From: a virus
Length of the DNA: 24,505 nucleotides
Virus record (IMG/VR): IMGVR_UViG_3300028196_000087
Span: 1 to 24,505 of that record
Direction: 5' to 3' (one strand)
Below are positions 1,414 to 24,467 of this stretch, one piece after another. The notes under the pieces are model-generated. The model searched no databases and was not told the origin of the DNA. It saw only the letters and a program-made list of their open reading frames with translations. A program made the translations under genes and the position numbers. Every line of letters starts with the position of its first letter. The stretch's first letter is position 1.

Positions 1414-1689
1414 ATGACGCAGGAAGAAACAAGATTAACCAAGATTGTCCATGACTATTCAATGATTACCGCTACTTTGTATCGAGACTTGAACGATGCA
1501 AAGGAACGTATTAGTGATCTTGATGAATACAACAAAAAGTTAAAGAAGCATTTAACTAGAAGCGAAAACGCAAGGGGGAACTGGAGGAACTTGGCTAGAC
1601 AACTGAAGGACGACTTATCTGTTCAACTAGGGAAGGAACCTTGTAATGAACGACCCATCGATAGTAAAGATACAGCCGTGGGAATATGA
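1414..1689 (+). CDS. Coiled-coil early protein, unknown function
   Basis: 91 residues. ATG 1414 is five bases after AGGAG (1404-1408); the GTG at 1411 is too close to that site. Residues about 20-75 are strongly helical and charged, with heptad-like spacing (LYRDLNDAKERISDLDEYNK, KKLKKHLTRSENARGN), predicting a coiled coil. No catalytic motif is seen. The gene follows the membrane protein by eight bases, and its 3' end overlaps the next gene by 44 bases in another frame. It may be a dimeric accessory or regulatory protein; nothing more can be said. Confidence 0.65.
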   Translation: MTQEETRLTKIVHDYSMITATLYRDLNDAKERISDLDEYNKKLKKHLTRSENARGNWRNLARQLKDDLSVQLGKEPCNERPIDSKDTAVGI

Positions 1690-2125
1690 GTACGCATATC
1701 AAGTAGGGATACGAAGGTTCACAGAAAACTGGGGGAGGAATGACGCTAGTTATTACGACAGGAGCAAAATGGAAGAGGATCGTAATGCTCAGTCGGCTGC
1801 AGCACTATGTGAACTGGCAGTAGCAAAATACCTAAACCAATACTGGCATGCATCGGTATGGCGAGCGGCTGCACATCGTTCGCACAAACACTTACCTGAT
1901 GTTGGTAATAACATAGAAGTAAGGCGGGTACGCACTGCTAAGGGCGTAACCGTCAGGAAAAACGACCGCGACAAAAGAGTATGGGGAGCAAAAATAATCG
2001 ATCCAGAATTTCGACGAATCCAGTTACTAGGCTACATAGAGGCTAATGAAGCATTGGAAAGGGGAAAGAAAGATATCGTGGTAGTTCCCTTTCAGTACTT
2101 AACTAAGCCTTGGGAAACAAGTTGA
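1646..2125 (+). CDS. PD-(D/E)XK nuclease-like protein
   Basis: 159 residues. The order of motifs resembles the PD-(D/E)XK nuclease superfamily. A helix carries Glu56 (ALCELAVAKYL). Pro84-Asp85 lies in LPDVG. Glu91-Val-Arg93 follows on the next strand, where the family normally has (D/E)xK. A further basic strand (VTVRKNDRD) comes next, then a strand-rich end (DIVVVPFQYL). Phages carry such proteins as recombination nucleases or Holliday-junction-type resolvases. Here the Lys is replaced by Arg, so activity is uncertain. The start follows AAGGAACC inside the end of the previous gene. Its TGA overlaps the -35 box of the promoter at 2122. It closes the early cassette. The fold assignment rests on motif spacing only. 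Confidence 0.6.
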   Translation: MNDPSIVKIQPWEYEYAYQVGIRRFTENWGRNDASYYDRSKMEEDRNAQSAAALCELAVAKYLNQYWHASVWRAAAHRSHKHLPDVGNNIEVRRVRTAKGVTVRKNDRDKRVWGAKIIDPEFRRIQLLGYIEANEALERGKKDIVVVPFQYLTKPWETS

Positions 2126-2149
2126 CACTGGCAAATACACACTTAAAAT
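2122..2149 (+). promoter_or_regulatory. Strong sigma70-type promoter ahead of the virion genes
   Basis: TTGACA (2122-2127, full consensus) and TAAAAT (2144-2149, five of six) are separated by 16 bases. The -35 box overlaps the stop codon of the preceding gene. Transcription should begin at about 2156. It is the best promoter match I find by eye in the window and is followed at once by a strong terminator. Confidence 0.6.
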
Positions 2150-2155
2150 TTAGGC

Positions 2156-2237
2156 AACCATTGTGAAAGCGGTCTAGCCAACCGCATATGCGACCCTCAA
2201 CGTGCTTTATCCTTTCTACGTTGAGGGTCGTTTTTTT
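2156..2237 (+). ncRNA. Candidate short leader RNA (about 80 nt)
   Basis: The promoter at 2122-2149 and the terminator ending at 2237 define a transcript of about 82 nt without an open frame that has a ribosome site. Besides the terminator stem it contains a small hairpin, GCGGT (2169-2173) with ACCGC (2181-2185) over a seven-base loop. Two readings are possible: a free-standing small RNA, or the aborted leader of the late operon, like the lambda 6S RNA made from pR' when Q is absent. Both are inferences from promoter-terminator spacing. Confidence 0.4.
2191..2237 (+). terminator. Strong intrinsic terminator (13-bp perfect stem)
   Basis: CGACCCTCAACGT (2191-2203) is exactly complementary to ACGTTGAGGGTCG (2218-2230), with a 14-base loop and seven T at 2231-2237. 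It ends both the early cassette and the short transcript from the promoter at 2122, and must be read through or bypassed if that promoter drives the virion genes. Confidence 0.92.
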
Positions 2238-2286
2238 ATGCAATGACCATAAGTATTGTGAGTGTTCATAACTAAAGGAGAATACG

Positions 2287-2442
2287 ATGCCCAAGGGTGT
2301 ACCTAAAACCGATGGCGAAAAACTTAAAGACAAGTTTGACGCTAACTATGGCAAGATGAAATCGAACTTCAGAAAAGGTGGTGCGAAGAAGGGTCGCAAT
2401 AAGTCACAATGTGATTGTCCAAAATGCAAAGCCAAGAAATGA
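2287..2442 (+). CDS. 51-residue Lys-rich protein with a C-terminal CxCxxC motif
   Basis: ATG 2287 follows the good ribosome site AAAGGAG (2273-2279). The 51-residue product begins MPKGVPKTDGEKLKDKF and is very basic, with about a third of residues Lys or Arg. It ends in Cys42-Asp-Cys44-Pro-Lys-Cys47, a possible metal-binding or redox cluster, then KAKK. The basic body suggests nucleic-acid binding. It is the first gene after the strong terminator, and the next start comes five bases after its stop. The clear ribosome site and abutting downstream gene support it despite its small size. No family recognised. Confidence 0.65.
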   Translation: MPKGVPKTDGEKLKDKFDANYGKMKSNFRKGGAKKGRNKSQCDCPKCKAKK

Positions 2443-5222: not shown

Positions 5223-6281
5223 ATGAGCGAAGAAGAAATATCCGATTCAGAAGTAGTCGAAGACGTAGCCGCCGAAGCAGTGGAAGACTCCTCTCAGGAA
5301 GTTCCTGCGGAGGGTGGAGAGCAGCAGGCAGAACAGGCTGATGTCTGGAATCATTTCCGTGGGATGGATCAGTTCCAAGGGAAAGATGACAACACAATTG
5401 CCCAGTCTTTGTACGAAGCAATGCAACGTGAAGACGCTGCAAATCGTGCTTTACAGCAGTATCAGACAGTAGTACCTATTGCTCAAGAGTACTTGCAGAA
5501 TAGAGACCAGTATGAGTCTTGGAAGTCACAGCAGTTCCAAGGTCAGCAGTCGTCAGGGAGCGTCAGTGGCAGTCAGCAGCCGTCACCAGCACCCGAAGAG
5601 AAGCCTTGGTGGAGTCCACCTGAAATAAAGGATTCTCACAAACGGTATCTAATTAAGGATGAACAGGGCAGGGACACAATACACCCCGATGCCCCCCTAG
5701 ATGCCAAGGCTTCTTTAGAAGAATATATGAATTTTAGAGCAGATTTTGCTCAAAAGTTCTTAGATAACCCTGAACAAGCACTAGGGCCAATGGTGGAAAA
5801 AGTCGCTGTACAGCGGGCAGAATCCATTATTGACGAGCGAATGGGGCGTATGCAGGACGAGCAATACGTCTCTGGGCTAGAGGCCGACAATAAAGATTGG
5901 CTTTATGACGAAAAAGGAAATGTATCTGCAGAGGGCATGGCAGTCCAAAAGTATATTGCAGATGCTAAACAAAACGGCATTGCCGGTGCGAAGGCCCGTT
6001 GGGACTATGCAACCAAGATGGTCGAGAGAGATTTACTCTTGCAGGCCGTCAACAGGATGCAGGGTGGTCAGCAGGCTCAAGCCCCGGTAGCCCAACAACT
6101 TGTTCCACAGCAACAGCAACCGACAGCGGATCAAAGAAACATGGAATACTTGAGGCAGCAAGCAGCAAGAACTCCGAGTCAGCGATCAGCGGCGGGAACT
6201 AATGCAGCGGAAAAAGACACTAGTGGAATGACGTTCGCTGAAAAACTGCAGGCAGTTGCTCAGGAACAAGGTTACCTTTAA
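5223..6281 (+). CDS. Capsid scaffold-like protein
   Basis: 352 residues. The first 45 are extremely acidic (MSEEEISDSEVVEDVAAEAV). Next comes a helical region with Gln-rich segments (residues 60-115), then a more structured middle (IKDSHKRYLIKDEQGRDTI), charged helices at about 165-270, a Gln-rich linker (LVPQQQQPTADQ) and a short helical end (GMTFAEKLQAVAQEQ). Acidic, helical, low-complexity proteins placed immediately before the major capsid gene are typical phage scaffolding proteins, which guide procapsid assembly and then leave. The C-terminal helix would be the expected capsid-contact site. The start has GGGAG at seven-base spacing. Alternatives are a capsid-associated internal protein. 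The assignment rests on composition and position. Confidence 0.7.
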   Translation: MSEEEISDSEVVEDVAAEAVEDSSQEVPAEGGEQQAEQADVWNHFRGMDQFQGKDDNTIAQSLYEAMQREDAANRALQQYQTVVPIAQEYLQNRDQYESWKSQQFQGQQSSGSVSGSQQPSPAPEEKPWWSPPEIKDSHKRYLIKDEQGRDTIHPDAPLDAKASLEEYMNFRADFAQKFLDNPEQALGPMVEKVAVQRAESIIDERMGRMQDEQYVSGLEADNKDWLYDEKGNVSAEGMAVQKYIADAKQNGIAGAKARWDYATKMVERDLLLQAVNRMQGGQQAQAPVAQQLVPQQQQPTADQRNMEYLRQQAARTPSQRSAAGTNAAEKDTSGMTFAEKLQAVAQEQGYL

Positions 6282-10370: not shown

Positions 10371-10680
10371 AACTAAAAAATGGAAGATGCCTGTCCCAAA
10401 CATTGGGGACGTAGTGCTATTCAGCACGGACTGGCAAACTTTTAAAAATCCGCAAATAGGTTTCGTAGCATCTAAGCCGGGTGATACGACCATAAGCATT
10501 CTGACGTTCTCACCCGCAGGGTTTGCTACGGTACACAATTCTGCCCATCACAAGGACGACCCAGCACTGCAGGGAGACCACGGATGGGAAGACCTTGGGG
10601 CGTGGGATTTCGCAACAATAACTAAAACATACCGCGAATTAACATCAGGGGTGAGCAGTGCAAGAAAGTCTACCAAGTAA
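10357..10680 (+). CDS. Small SH3-like conserved phage protein
   Basis: 107 residues from the second of two consecutive ATGs: AGGAGG (10346-10351) is five bases from ATG 10357 but only two from ATG 10354. Residues about 14-75 read as a small beta-barrel: NIGDVVLFSTDWQTFKNPQI, GFVASKPGDTTISILTF, then VHNSAHHKDDPAL and GAWDFATI. A gene of this kind, with a short barrel followed by a His/Asp-rich loop, sits next to terminase or portal genes in a number of phages, but its role is not known to me. It overlaps the terminase end by 14 bases and the portal start by 23. Probably a late gene with a structural or assembly role. Confidence 0.6.
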   Translation: MSTVETKKWKMPVPNIGDVVLFSTDWQTFKNPQIGFVASKPGDTTISILTFSPAGFATVHNSAHHKDDPALQGDHGWEDLGAWDFATITKTYRELTSGVSSARKSTK

Positions 10681-20900: not shown

Positions 20901-21770
20901 ATTAACATTCCAACATCTTCTTACAACACAGTCTTTCTTAGGTTTGGTTTTGTTGGTAATGCACCATTAACTTCCAGCCTGTGGCATGTAGGGAACATGG
21001 CCCAGATAGATCGCGGCGAGCCTGTTTCTGGAACCGGAATCCAAGCCAACACAACACTGCTTACTTCATTTACAAACACAAACTTTTCTGATCCGTCAGA
21101 TTTATACAGTACGTCAACTAATATTGTTTCCTTCTCTAAGACAGCAACGGTCGTTGCAAACACTGCTGCTACTTTTGGGTATCAAGTTGTGCCAATCCAA
21201 TACGATTCTTTGACGAAGACTCCTTATCTAGAAAAGGGAGGCACTCGAATTCTTGTAAGATTTGTTAAGCCATCTCAAACAAGCGTGCCTTTCAGGATGC
21301 AAACAGGCCACATGCCCGTGGTTAATGAAGACGTAGCGAAAAAGGGAGATCAGTTAATTGACCGCTCGTTCTCTTTGATCTATACGCCTACGTATGGTGA
21401 TAAAGACATTTCGTTGATTGAGAGATACAACGGGTGGCAAGAGCCACGATCAAACGAGATGAGAAGGGAACGAGGTGGGCCGGGTACATTTGTTCATAAG
21501 CAGGACAGTGCGTCTACTGACCTGAACATGAACAGAGAATCGTCAAGTCTAGGGTTTGCAACCGGGGTTGCTAAAGCCAAGTTTGCCTCAAGGTCAAACG
21601 CAGACATGACAGGAACTGACCAACACATTCAAATAGAACTCTTTGGAAAGCCTTCAAGAGGAAGCAAGTGGAAAAGGACTAACTTCTTTGTTCCAGAAGA
21701 AACAGTCAAGCCTCCCCTTCCGTGTGTCTTGCACCAGATTGTAGTAGAAGGGGTGGTTGAAGATGGCTAG
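14970..21770 (+). CDS. Giant tail hub/nozzle protein (gp10 / tail tubular protein B-like) with lectin-like insertion
   Basis: 2266 residues; T7 gp12 is about 800. The N-terminus (YLLRPGELRVLNNLQSRRPG then LIARPG) is typical of short-tail hub proteins. Residues about 1224-1577 form a beta-propeller-like core (AVAFQDRLFMAVSTSG, LFYSEFDEFESV, VPFGSMLLAMQHTHTYALTY, ILYSADESGVYAMSR), the signature of P22 gp10/T7 gp12. Added parts: a Gly-Tyr module at about 189-247, 915-975 and 1575-1635; a VG-turn module at about 329-390, 407-480, 1019-1063, 1818-1840, 1864-1920 and 2016-2061; and a three-repeat bulb-lectin-like domain at about 1085-1215. The C-terminal 170 residues are again strand-rich with a long basic linker (EPRSNEMRRERGG). 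It would form the hexameric end of the short tail and could bind a host surface sugar. Confidence 0.75.
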   Translation: MKIRQWLGYNEDASQYLLRPGELRVLNNLQSRRPGMLIARPGIKKIYGEYDDQTIFGLYRRSTILGTPSDFLWLQKILVEKELSADEIGQSVFPLEYRWQVKRIKDDQARVVDELDISPNGTAINNFSLAEDRHGRIFIFYGHGVEPRLYRPDLLSTLAISMGMNPPLSMPKITPTGEGFFIEQVDVDLGGGGYNSPPELTVSEGDPIRPAKLKAIVKRGNVVGVDIIDGGAGYKTPPEIKADLTDIGSGFRAVGTVSGSAAVLSGFLESDAGTVTGTAIGSNETYGDKDGTENQKIGYAAPLSDQELTLTNWMYQWVVGSITPVAGFNIPLERVDGLKVGMQVRAVAYNANGSNSGNYAYPVKTITGVDTVNKTVTLNTFAFDNAANTTSTAYIYSFVVQSDASHRLGFAVQSVEGVTVGDAVQLTPDINCIPVAGNTMPTVTNNLAVANYTSFNAAGAKVLSIDSDLKQIVVDKVIHIGGSFTGNAMTSDQNPLNKVVTLTTTNNGTAYANATYESNSRRYFASIPLSTASSTGENAHATLQFSPLPLGFAVNTSGESSKGISDTGLNKHFNIIGLEGGRWATQSTLTEYLYGEYWSGSDFDRPRSSENARYGGLQASGTSFVHGFSGTTGGRKTDVYWPDYSKLSVWFNTGVRSTSLSQWTRADVPVQTDSGGTRYIEFDLKPHKQAKQVSGTERSTIATEYEDQTELPDATAPRVRINLVDCPDSWIVEGDQCIPTANKETGNHGAGNRLPWYSPTSGVPRPIVDLPRDGITNEIQTTACQIINAGNGWGKDTQFVFRMYQANSYQQLNDHNTANTELTKPRSHSIYSASNRYVEFNIKTTVADANTPHGPPHSLISPNVVGITGDGYKNGDVGTVTLRKRTIGVAGITDGQAMSWTAKTIATLGTSTQKNVTGFTIYNKGQNYRTKPNVMIRNEGSGYGLSVDPVIKNGRIDSLTILDSGMQYNSVPELYTLARAAKLSPVMRPAMRGKYRCAYRYADRSEQIIKTITAERGESSTMLTVSDTTDLEAGMFLESPELADFTQIKSVIKDQVEISREILNLPESYKTYWSTPFFNNSSGTKILGSATATTSYKIASGTTVYSDNNEFALIMQADGDLVIYQKRTFVTGFDSASGTTASESAYDTKVWAFSDLGYVPVAGAYAMLGNDGQLYILPSDWPTSPPITGTGIVIPSTQLPATLELTNGGQLQVKSGRVIASITVRDPKKPVAYSDLSPIADVDAGPTAERSHASKMTWVLEGAEPSSRCDMVELWRTSSDQSLVFYRVEAYGKPTDSNVEIVGEDTLTDEELFDPDRPNYAALPVVLPNGAVNAFRFGQPRKDMAVAVAFQDRLFMAVSTSGKDVNTLFYSEFDEFESVPDVNELPIQSNQKSNDVITALVPFGSMLLAMQHTHTYALTYNTDPALDASIQMMSHRGTLHQRCWDIHENILYSADESGVYAMSRNGEVTDISLPVRDYFVGELIDFSKRETFFLQTDPRTHILRFFCTTTSIATDTPSMALCYDIQAQSWWTESYPNSMTAACTGRPDAQRINTILLGGVDGNLYEYDGDGDEPNASLTGTVVTNGGSGYREAPIITVPNVQGATAQGVVSDGQLVDVIIENAGWDTDYGINILTETGIPISGHDNKYIQGAEYAPVRLEIGKPCDGGIQAVAEADWEVMPEIKRFATMTEGANFVRVDPARVDNIEPVSHDHISTESGLYLELEQGSDQTLRTQPPLVEIGMEALGDFIPLNSYVSRIDRNDVYLQHPDGTDVSLLKGEPRTEEVLQEITVDNQTTSCNLLASVALLTQAALNVEGTTPYRIDVNDVTGIAVGSVVSGSLGVPDVTTARLAAAALETASPNTAPYTITVDDATGIQVGAAITAVSNFGADVNQSIPAGTTVSSISGNVITTNNPIYIPESAQMFTSVGGTAVDFSLEIILSFSKPTTVTSLETEIINFPDGTSQTVFTGGVFVDRPINIPTSSYNTVFLRFGFVGNAPLTSSLWHVGNMAQIDRGEPVSGTGIQANTTLLTSFTNTNFSDPSDLYSTSTNIVSFSKTATVVANTAATFGYQVVPIQYDSLTKTPYLEKGGTRILVRFVKPSQTSVPFRMQTGHMPVVNEDVAKKGDQLIDRSFSLIYTPTYGDKDISLIERYNGWQEPRSNEMRRERGGPGTFVHKQDSASTDLNMNRESSSLGFATGVAKAKFASRSNADMTGTDQHIQIELFGKPSRGSKWKRTNFFVPEETVKPPLPCVLHQIVVEGVVEDG
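18222..18620 (+). other. Bulb-type (mannose-binding) lectin-like domain within the tail hub
   Basis: Residues about 1085-1215 contain three spaced copies of the beta-prism II strand motif: MQADGDLVIY (1115-1124), LGNDGQLYIL (1168-1177) and LELTNGGQLQV (1203-1213). The first fits QxDxNxVxY, the monocot-lectin mannose site, with Asp in place of Asn. The second and third keep the (N/D)G(Q)L core but not the full site. A Trp lies between copies (KVWAF), as in the family. Confidence 0.6.
20421..20730 (+). repeat. Tandem copies of the VG-turn beta module in the tail hub
   Basis: Two adjacent coding repeats: TTPYRIDVNDVTGIAVGSVV (from about 20421) and TAPYTITVDDATGIQVGAAI (from about 20560), the second continuing IPAGTTVSSISGNVITT. 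They share the pattern PY.I.V.D.TGI.VG. The similarity is at protein level; related copies occur elsewhere in this protein and in the connector. Confidence 0.65.
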
Positions 21771-23935: not shown

Positions 23936-24467
23936 TCTACTAAAAGACCTATCGGCTCCTGCTGGTTTTGAGCAAGGCATACGTGGTGAAGTCCAGTCAA
24001 TGGATGAGCAGGGCGGTATGTCAAGCGAAATTGTTCCGGGTGCTTCAGAAAACGCTGTTATAAAACAAGCAGAAGGGTTTGCGGAACTTATCCTTCAGGC
24101 CGAACGAGAAGTCGGTGCTGGAGGCCCAACGCCTGCAGTTGATCAAATCGTGGAGCAGGTAATGCAACACGATAGAGAGAATGACCCAGTCGATGGAGAT
24201 GTGCCTACTGTCATAGGCGGCATGGCCGCTGCCCTGCAAATCGCCAGTCCTGAATTGCGTAATATGATAATGCAAAAGGCTGGCAACCCAGATACGTTTA
24301 TGCCTCTACAAGAAGAAGGGATGCAACAAGGAATGCAGCAGGCACCGCTAGCCGGACTTGCTGACACAATGCCAATGGCACCCCCTATGGACGGTGGCCT
24401 TGACCCAAGCAGGCCATCGATGAGCAAGATGGATCAGGTTTCCCCACTCAGATCATTAATGAAATAA
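23925..24467 (+). CDS. Gln/Met-rich phage protein, unknown function
   Basis: 180 residues from ATG 23925 (MKNNLLKDLSAPAGFEQGIR). The frame is open further upstream to 23889, but that start would overlap the charged protein by 47 bases without a ribosome site. Residues about 45-130 are helical (KQAEGFAELILQAEREVGAG, VIGGMAAALQIASPELRNMI). The last 50 residues are low-complexity, rich in Met, Gln, Pro and Gly (EEGMQQGMQQAPLAGLADTM, PPMDGGLDP). No recognised domain. A partial gene follows two bases later, so it sits inside the operon. Possibly an internal virion or assembly protein. Confidence 0.6.
   Translation: MKNNLLKDLSAPAGFEQGIRGEVQSMDEQGGMSSEIVPGASENAVIKQAEGFAELILQAEREVGAGGPTPAVDQIVEQVMQHDRENDPVDGDVPTVIGGMAAALQIASPELRNMIMQKAGNPDTFMPLQEEGMQQGMQQAPLAGLADTMPMAPPMDGGLDPSRPSMSKMDQVSPLRSLMK

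Follow-up and report, generated by a model that had tools for sequence, protein, structure and literature searches.

The window, as we call the whole stretch of DNA analysed here, is a complete IMG/VR record of 24,505 bases and a linear fragment. Its features at and beyond a junction near its left end are listed in Table 1. All large ORFs downstream of the junction, up to position 24467, lie on the + strand. The initial annotation had described more than 22 kb of same-strand virion-type genes with little internal termination, and this description holds, the terminator-like sites within the operon being weak only. Searches of viral contigs with the window's major capsid protein gave 43 and later 341 relatives, the closest being G001/L002 (97% capsid identity) and L003 (96%). 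Relatives of the capsid protein are absent from 50,697 phage records, a nucleotide search of phage records with the window found no relatives, and cultured relatives are not known. Only remote matches were obtained for the window's portal and large terminase proteins. A tRNA search found none, and the 1133-aa protein behind the virion genes, considered as a polymerase, was rejected, having no family or PDB match. The contig of one relative (L149) sits in a Planctomycetia metagenome bin, a weak host hint given that phage contigs can be mis-binned.

Table 1. Features at the junction and candidate internal sites, in window coordinates
Feature	Position	Strand	Remarks
159-aa ORF, final gene of the upstream (early) set	1646..2125	+	stop codon overlaps the -35 hexamer
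sigma70-type promoter TTGACA-N16-TAAAAT	2122..2149	+	TTGACA 2122-2127, 16-nt spacer, TAAAAT 2144-2149
Predicted ~82-nt RNA	2156..2237	+	start predicted; end at the terminator
Hairpin 1: GCGGU, loop CUAGCCA, ACCGC	2169..2185	+	added by the present analysis
Hairpin 2 and U7, intrinsic terminator	2190..2237	+	the loop sequence UCCUUUC is conserved
Site A, GACCATAAGTA, proposed late promoter element	2245..2255	+	right after the T run; added by the present analysis
Shine-Dalgarno AAAGGAG and start codon of the first late gene	2274..2289	+	position conserved
First late gene, 51 aa, basic, cysteine-rich end	2287..2442	+	homologs in L002, L003 and L030
Site B, GTCCAAAAGTA, weaker candidate	5943..5953	+	inside a 352-aa ORF, ~370 nt before the major capsid gene
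Site C, GACCATAAGCA, possible internal late promoter	10488..10498	+	inside a 108-aa ORF, ~170 nt before the portal gene

Homologs of the 159-aa ORF occupy the same place in L002 and L003 and also occur in L030, L039 and L043; among the relatives at large, the gene immediately upstream of the junction varies. In many of them, outside the window's clade, a small protein (CxGGPLCG ... HYYR ... FWHY) is encoded directly 5' of the terminator (L015:2824-3075, L030:3092-3394, L031:1099-1356 and others). Two more + strand terminator-like hairpins (388-417 and 478-504) lie further upstream in the window, in the intergenic gap at 361-780.

The sigma70-type promoter reported in the initial annotation was confirmed by direct reading of the sequence. 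It is the window's sole 11/12 match, every other site scoring 10 or less. The scan alone proves nothing, since weaker promoter-like sites are no commoner than in shuffled sequences. The window and the fetched loci of L002 and L003 each contain a single + strand match to TTGACA-N15-18-TANNNT, at the same place. Compared with the window, the hexamers in these two relatives are 6/6 and 4-5/6 identical and the spacer only 6-8/16. The promoter is recognisable in the window and these two relatives only, and not in most of the relatives that keep the RNA described below.

The perfect 13-bp stem followed by seven T, also reported earlier, is present and slightly longer than described: the hairpin 2 stem (2191-2203/2218-2230) consists of 13 Watson-Crick pairs and one G-U pair at each end, encloses a 12-nt loop and runs into the T at 2231-2237. 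The RNA predicted between the promoter and this T run has a folding energy of -31.9 kcal/mol (z = -5.9), and none of 200 shuffles was equally stable. Alignment of the region in relatives, as the initial annotation had suggested, revealed that the two-hairpin RNA is conserved with covariation. The eleven junction sequences, from the window and ten relatives, share two hairpins, one with the 7-nt loop CUAGCCA and one with the pyrimidine loop (U)CCUUUC, and then a T run. In this alignment 96% of the cells are paired, and 15 of 18 pairs have changes on both sides (4/4 counted pairs in hairpin 1, with 100% of cells paired, and 11/14 in hairpin 2). The cells changed on both sides number 49, compared to 15.7 in shuffles, and slid registers all gave far lower counts. 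A covariance model placed the element at a single junction in each relative (E values down to 1e-20). In L132 there is one further, weaker match, again preceding the same small gene; the remaining matches are weak and unconnected with the early-late junction. A search of 4227 Rfam models placed the RNA in no family, with only a chance snoR9 match elsewhere, and we describe it here as a conserved two-hairpin terminator RNA outside Rfam. The put RNAs of phage HK022 also consist of two adjacent hairpins near a phage promoter; unlike in those, hairpin 2 here is followed by a T run and acts as the terminator itself. The short RNA probably exists. Its loops stay the same while its stems change, and because CUAGCCA and (U)CCUUUC are conserved, it may be more than a stop signal.

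Directly behind the T run lies a second conserved element. Its family consensus is GNCCATAARYA, often followed by RGG, and at this place it reads GTCCATAA, GCCCATAA or GACCATAA in the relatives. The motif precedes the first late gene in nearly all relatives with a located late start, and comparable short ORFs follow it in relatives other than those with a homolog of the 51-aa gene. Some of these junctions have the motif and no terminator (L029, L036, L039, L106, L121, L126 and L128), and in L004 the stem differs from the two-hairpin terminator. In the deepest relatives the motif is found 4-9 nt past the stop codon of a gene that we take, from the look of its sequence, to be SSB-like. Since the motif is kept at junctions with no terminator or a very different one, it probably predates the terminator. 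It is rare, with only 2-5 copies per genome, and the 30 matches to KWCCATAWRYA found in 18 relatives share the strand of the late genes without exception. Judged by its position and conservation, the motif behaves like a putative late promoter independent of the terminator. Site A in the window is without the downstream RGG found elsewhere.

Searches for sigma factor domains Sigma70_r4/r4_2 gave weak matches to the same ORF (172-195 codons) in 10 of the 12 long relatives. The proteins are 170-173 aa long and 61-72% identical to the first member of the family. Some members match Sigma70_r2 (E 1.5e-5) and others region 4, these Pfam matches falling below the curated cut-offs. The family also matches PHROG families annotated as RNA polymerase sigma factor, and the closest sequence in the PDB belongs to the ECF factor SigE (E 0.06). 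A structure model of moderate confidence (pLDDT 76, pTM 0.52) matched sigma factors all the way down the list of structures; its region 2 superimposes on the ECF factor 8b3z (Z 9.2, 2.3 Å over 75 residues) and its region 4 on 2h27 (Z 9.4, 2.7 Å over 67 residues). The protein fits the ECF layout, in which regions 2 and 4 make up ~170-200 aa and region 3 is missing. The family comprises L150:6599-7114 and 30 loci on 30 contigs (L156-L185), and matched nothing in the 50,697 phage records or in plasmid records. A search for T7-type RNA polymerase (PF00940) was silent in all 18 records, and likewise in the family's control set.

The sigma gene is absent from the 24.5-kb window fragment. It was not found in the nearest long relative either, whose contig breaks off just after the helicase gene and before the sigma region. 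In L178, a contig from the sample that also yielded the near relative L003, the order is helicase, a motif copy, sigma, and the window phage presumably carries the gene as well; judging by the nearest relatives, it would sit between the helicase gene and this fragment's left end. The early-region motif copy is syntenic. Another small gene follows it closely, the sigma gene lies 2.46-2.79 kb downstream, and in 15 of 15 listed relatives NCCATAA is kept while the flanks have diverged, most copies reading NCCATAARYARGG. These copies have a TG 20-21 nt upstream, and the TGC element there has no counterpart at site A, which is also outside the top matches of a matrix built from the early-region sites alone. 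The co-occurrence of motif and sigma factor suggests that the phage sigma may be what reads GNCCATAARYA.

From the observed anatomy, conservation and covariation of the junction and the sigma domains in relatives, we infer that the motif is a promoter. The explanation that we favor, with reasonable confidence, is that the junction divides early from late genes in a phage genome read in one direction and that a phage-sigma promoter at 2245 opens the late genes. Host RNA polymerase with its housekeeping sigma would transcribe the early genes and, in the window's clade, also start from the sigma70-type promoter at the junction. Such transcription would yield the two-hairpin RNA, end at 2237 and be kept out of the virion operon. 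The ECF-type phage sigma, made from the early region, would then redirect host polymerase to GNCCATAARYA promoters, and the site ~2.5 kb before its own gene may be one of these. Late mRNA would start just after 2255, ~20 nt past the terminator, and read the 51-aa gene. A late switch by a phage sigma requires a conserved short element before the late genes, and a putative promoter of this kind is present.

The initial annotation had instead proposed a lambda-type switch, in which the 2122 promoter acts as pR' and transcription stops at tR' (2237) until a Q-like phage antiterminator permits read-through. Like lambda pR'-tR'-Q, the window has a sigma70-type promoter with a terminator close behind it (~80 nt) ahead of a long one-direction late operon, a short RNA is expected, and a structured RNA is indeed conserved at the junction. 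However, lambda lacks a counterpart to the independent, conserved promoter-like element behind the terminator, which is kept in those relatives that have no terminator. The antiterminator search suggested at the time was run on the relatives. Neither PF06530 nor PF03589 was found in the 12 long relatives, the lone sub-cut-off match being the C-terminal part of the sigma ORF, and no Q or Antiterm protein was recognised among 40 early ORFs. Such proteins vary so widely that a search may overlook them, and the window covers only part of its genome. The variable gene directly upstream of the junction, and a sigma70-type promoter that is unrecognisable in most relatives retaining the RNA, also speak against a lambda-type arrangement. 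With no Q or Antiterm protein found and a promoter-like element behind the stop, lambda-style antitermination becomes less likely; we regard it as very unlikely, and a phage sigma factor probably turns on the late genes. The place of the proposed early-late switch and its discrete small RNA are supported, with conserved hexamers and covariation in both hairpins, while the Q/tR' mechanism is not. The predicted start behind the terminator comes close to the finding that the initial annotation had set against its own model, namely late transcripts starting after 2237.

A phage sigma reading short late promoters has precedents. In phiEco32, gp36 reads single-element promoters (tAATGTAtA) and transcription starts 6-8 bp downstream; in 7-11, gp47 reads late promoters of the form GTAAtg-16-aCTA (PMC8948821). 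The element here is GNCCATAARYA. Common to these phages and the window's family would be a phage sigma (here in the relatives), short elements before late genes, and early genes transcribed from host sigma70 promoters. Unlike gp36 and gp47, the sigma factor here shows both regions 2 and 4, in the ECF layout, and a conserved two-hairpin terminator abuts the proposed late promoter. SPO1 and T4 use sigma-like proteins of their own to have host polymerase transcribe the late genes. The likeness to them is in the proposed late-gene scheme, the genomes being unrelated. If correct, our proposal provides a testable transcription programme, with a sigma factor, a promoter motif and an early stop signal, for a large group of uncultured phages.

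The conserved loops raise the possibility that the RNA is mainly a regulator, its loop UCCUUUC pairing with Shine-Dalgarno sequences, foremost that of the first late gene, and silencing it early. The terminated RNA could do so in trans, or the same loop in cis within read-through transcripts, and either would be compatible with the phage-sigma switch. The loop sequence is conserved while the stems change, and the RNA has its own promoter in the window's clade. In most members the loop can pair with its own downstream Shine-Dalgarno sequence (UCCUUU/AAAGGA in the window, CCCUUUC/GAAAGGG in L033, CUCCCUUC/GAAGGGAG in L015), better than shuffled loops do (0/300). A preference for cognate over non-cognate Shine-Dalgarno sequences is weak, with P values, which ignore relatedness, of 0.01, 0.065 and 0.044 in differently thinned sets. 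However, any pyrimidine loop pairs with Shine-Dalgarno sequences, pairing is poor in L023, L010, L116 and L030, and the conserved hairpin 1 loop CUAGCCA is left unexplained. The loop pairing predicted from these sequences is suggestive, and we consider a mainly regulatory role possible but not likely. Bacterial RNA polymerase is known to reinitiate after termination (PMC6978380). Polymerases terminating beside the late promoter could restart there after exchanging sigma, and the cassette would then have the transfer from host to phage sigma built into it. That the cassette is such an active device, through this transfer or through repression of late translation by the anti-Shine-Dalgarno loop, seems to us rather improbable.

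Under the phage-sigma switch, site A would serve the whole late operon, and site C, perhaps also site B, would be internal boosters. The 108-aa ORF that contains site C sits between the terminase and portal genes. In the nearer clade its codons ACC, ATA and AGC are nearly fixed (26/27, 26/27 and 22/23), and neighbouring wobble positions vary around the fixed ATA and AGC codons. Site C did not stand out in a first scan for synonymous constraint, which used distant relatives; in the nearer-clade scan it ranked 4 of 1768 codon windows. The three windows above it reach into the region where the following gene starts, which leaves site C as the top synonymous constraint that gene overlap does not account for. 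Site B has one mismatch to the motif and ranked 12 of 1768. These would be candidate promoters hidden in coding sequence and visible only through frozen synonymous codons.

The motif could also be another kind of DNA or RNA site (for packaging, nicking, activator binding or processing), with the terminator merely closing the early operon. Its low copy number would fit, as would the two copies near head-assembly and packaging genes, at the late operon start and at terminase large/portal. We find this doubtful, however, as the copies are on the gene strand and mostly precede genes, one lies in the early region far from virion genes, and a sigma factor accompanies the motif.

Further constrained stretches were seen in the coding sequence. 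The scaffold-like 352-aa ORF is under strong synonymous constraint at 5919-5960, which reads AATGTATCT ... GTCCARAAATATAT in relatives; an overlapping gene as its cause was rejected, the +1 frame being closed in many relatives. AATGTAT in this stretch is similar to the phiEco32 sigma element, which may be a coincidence. The same ORF has a constrained stretch AGAACTCCGAGTCAG at 6168-6182 (rank 11 of 1768). A one-mismatch copy of the motif, GTTCATAAGCAGGA, is located at 21492-21505, late in the 2266-aa ORF and upstream of an ORF at 21757.
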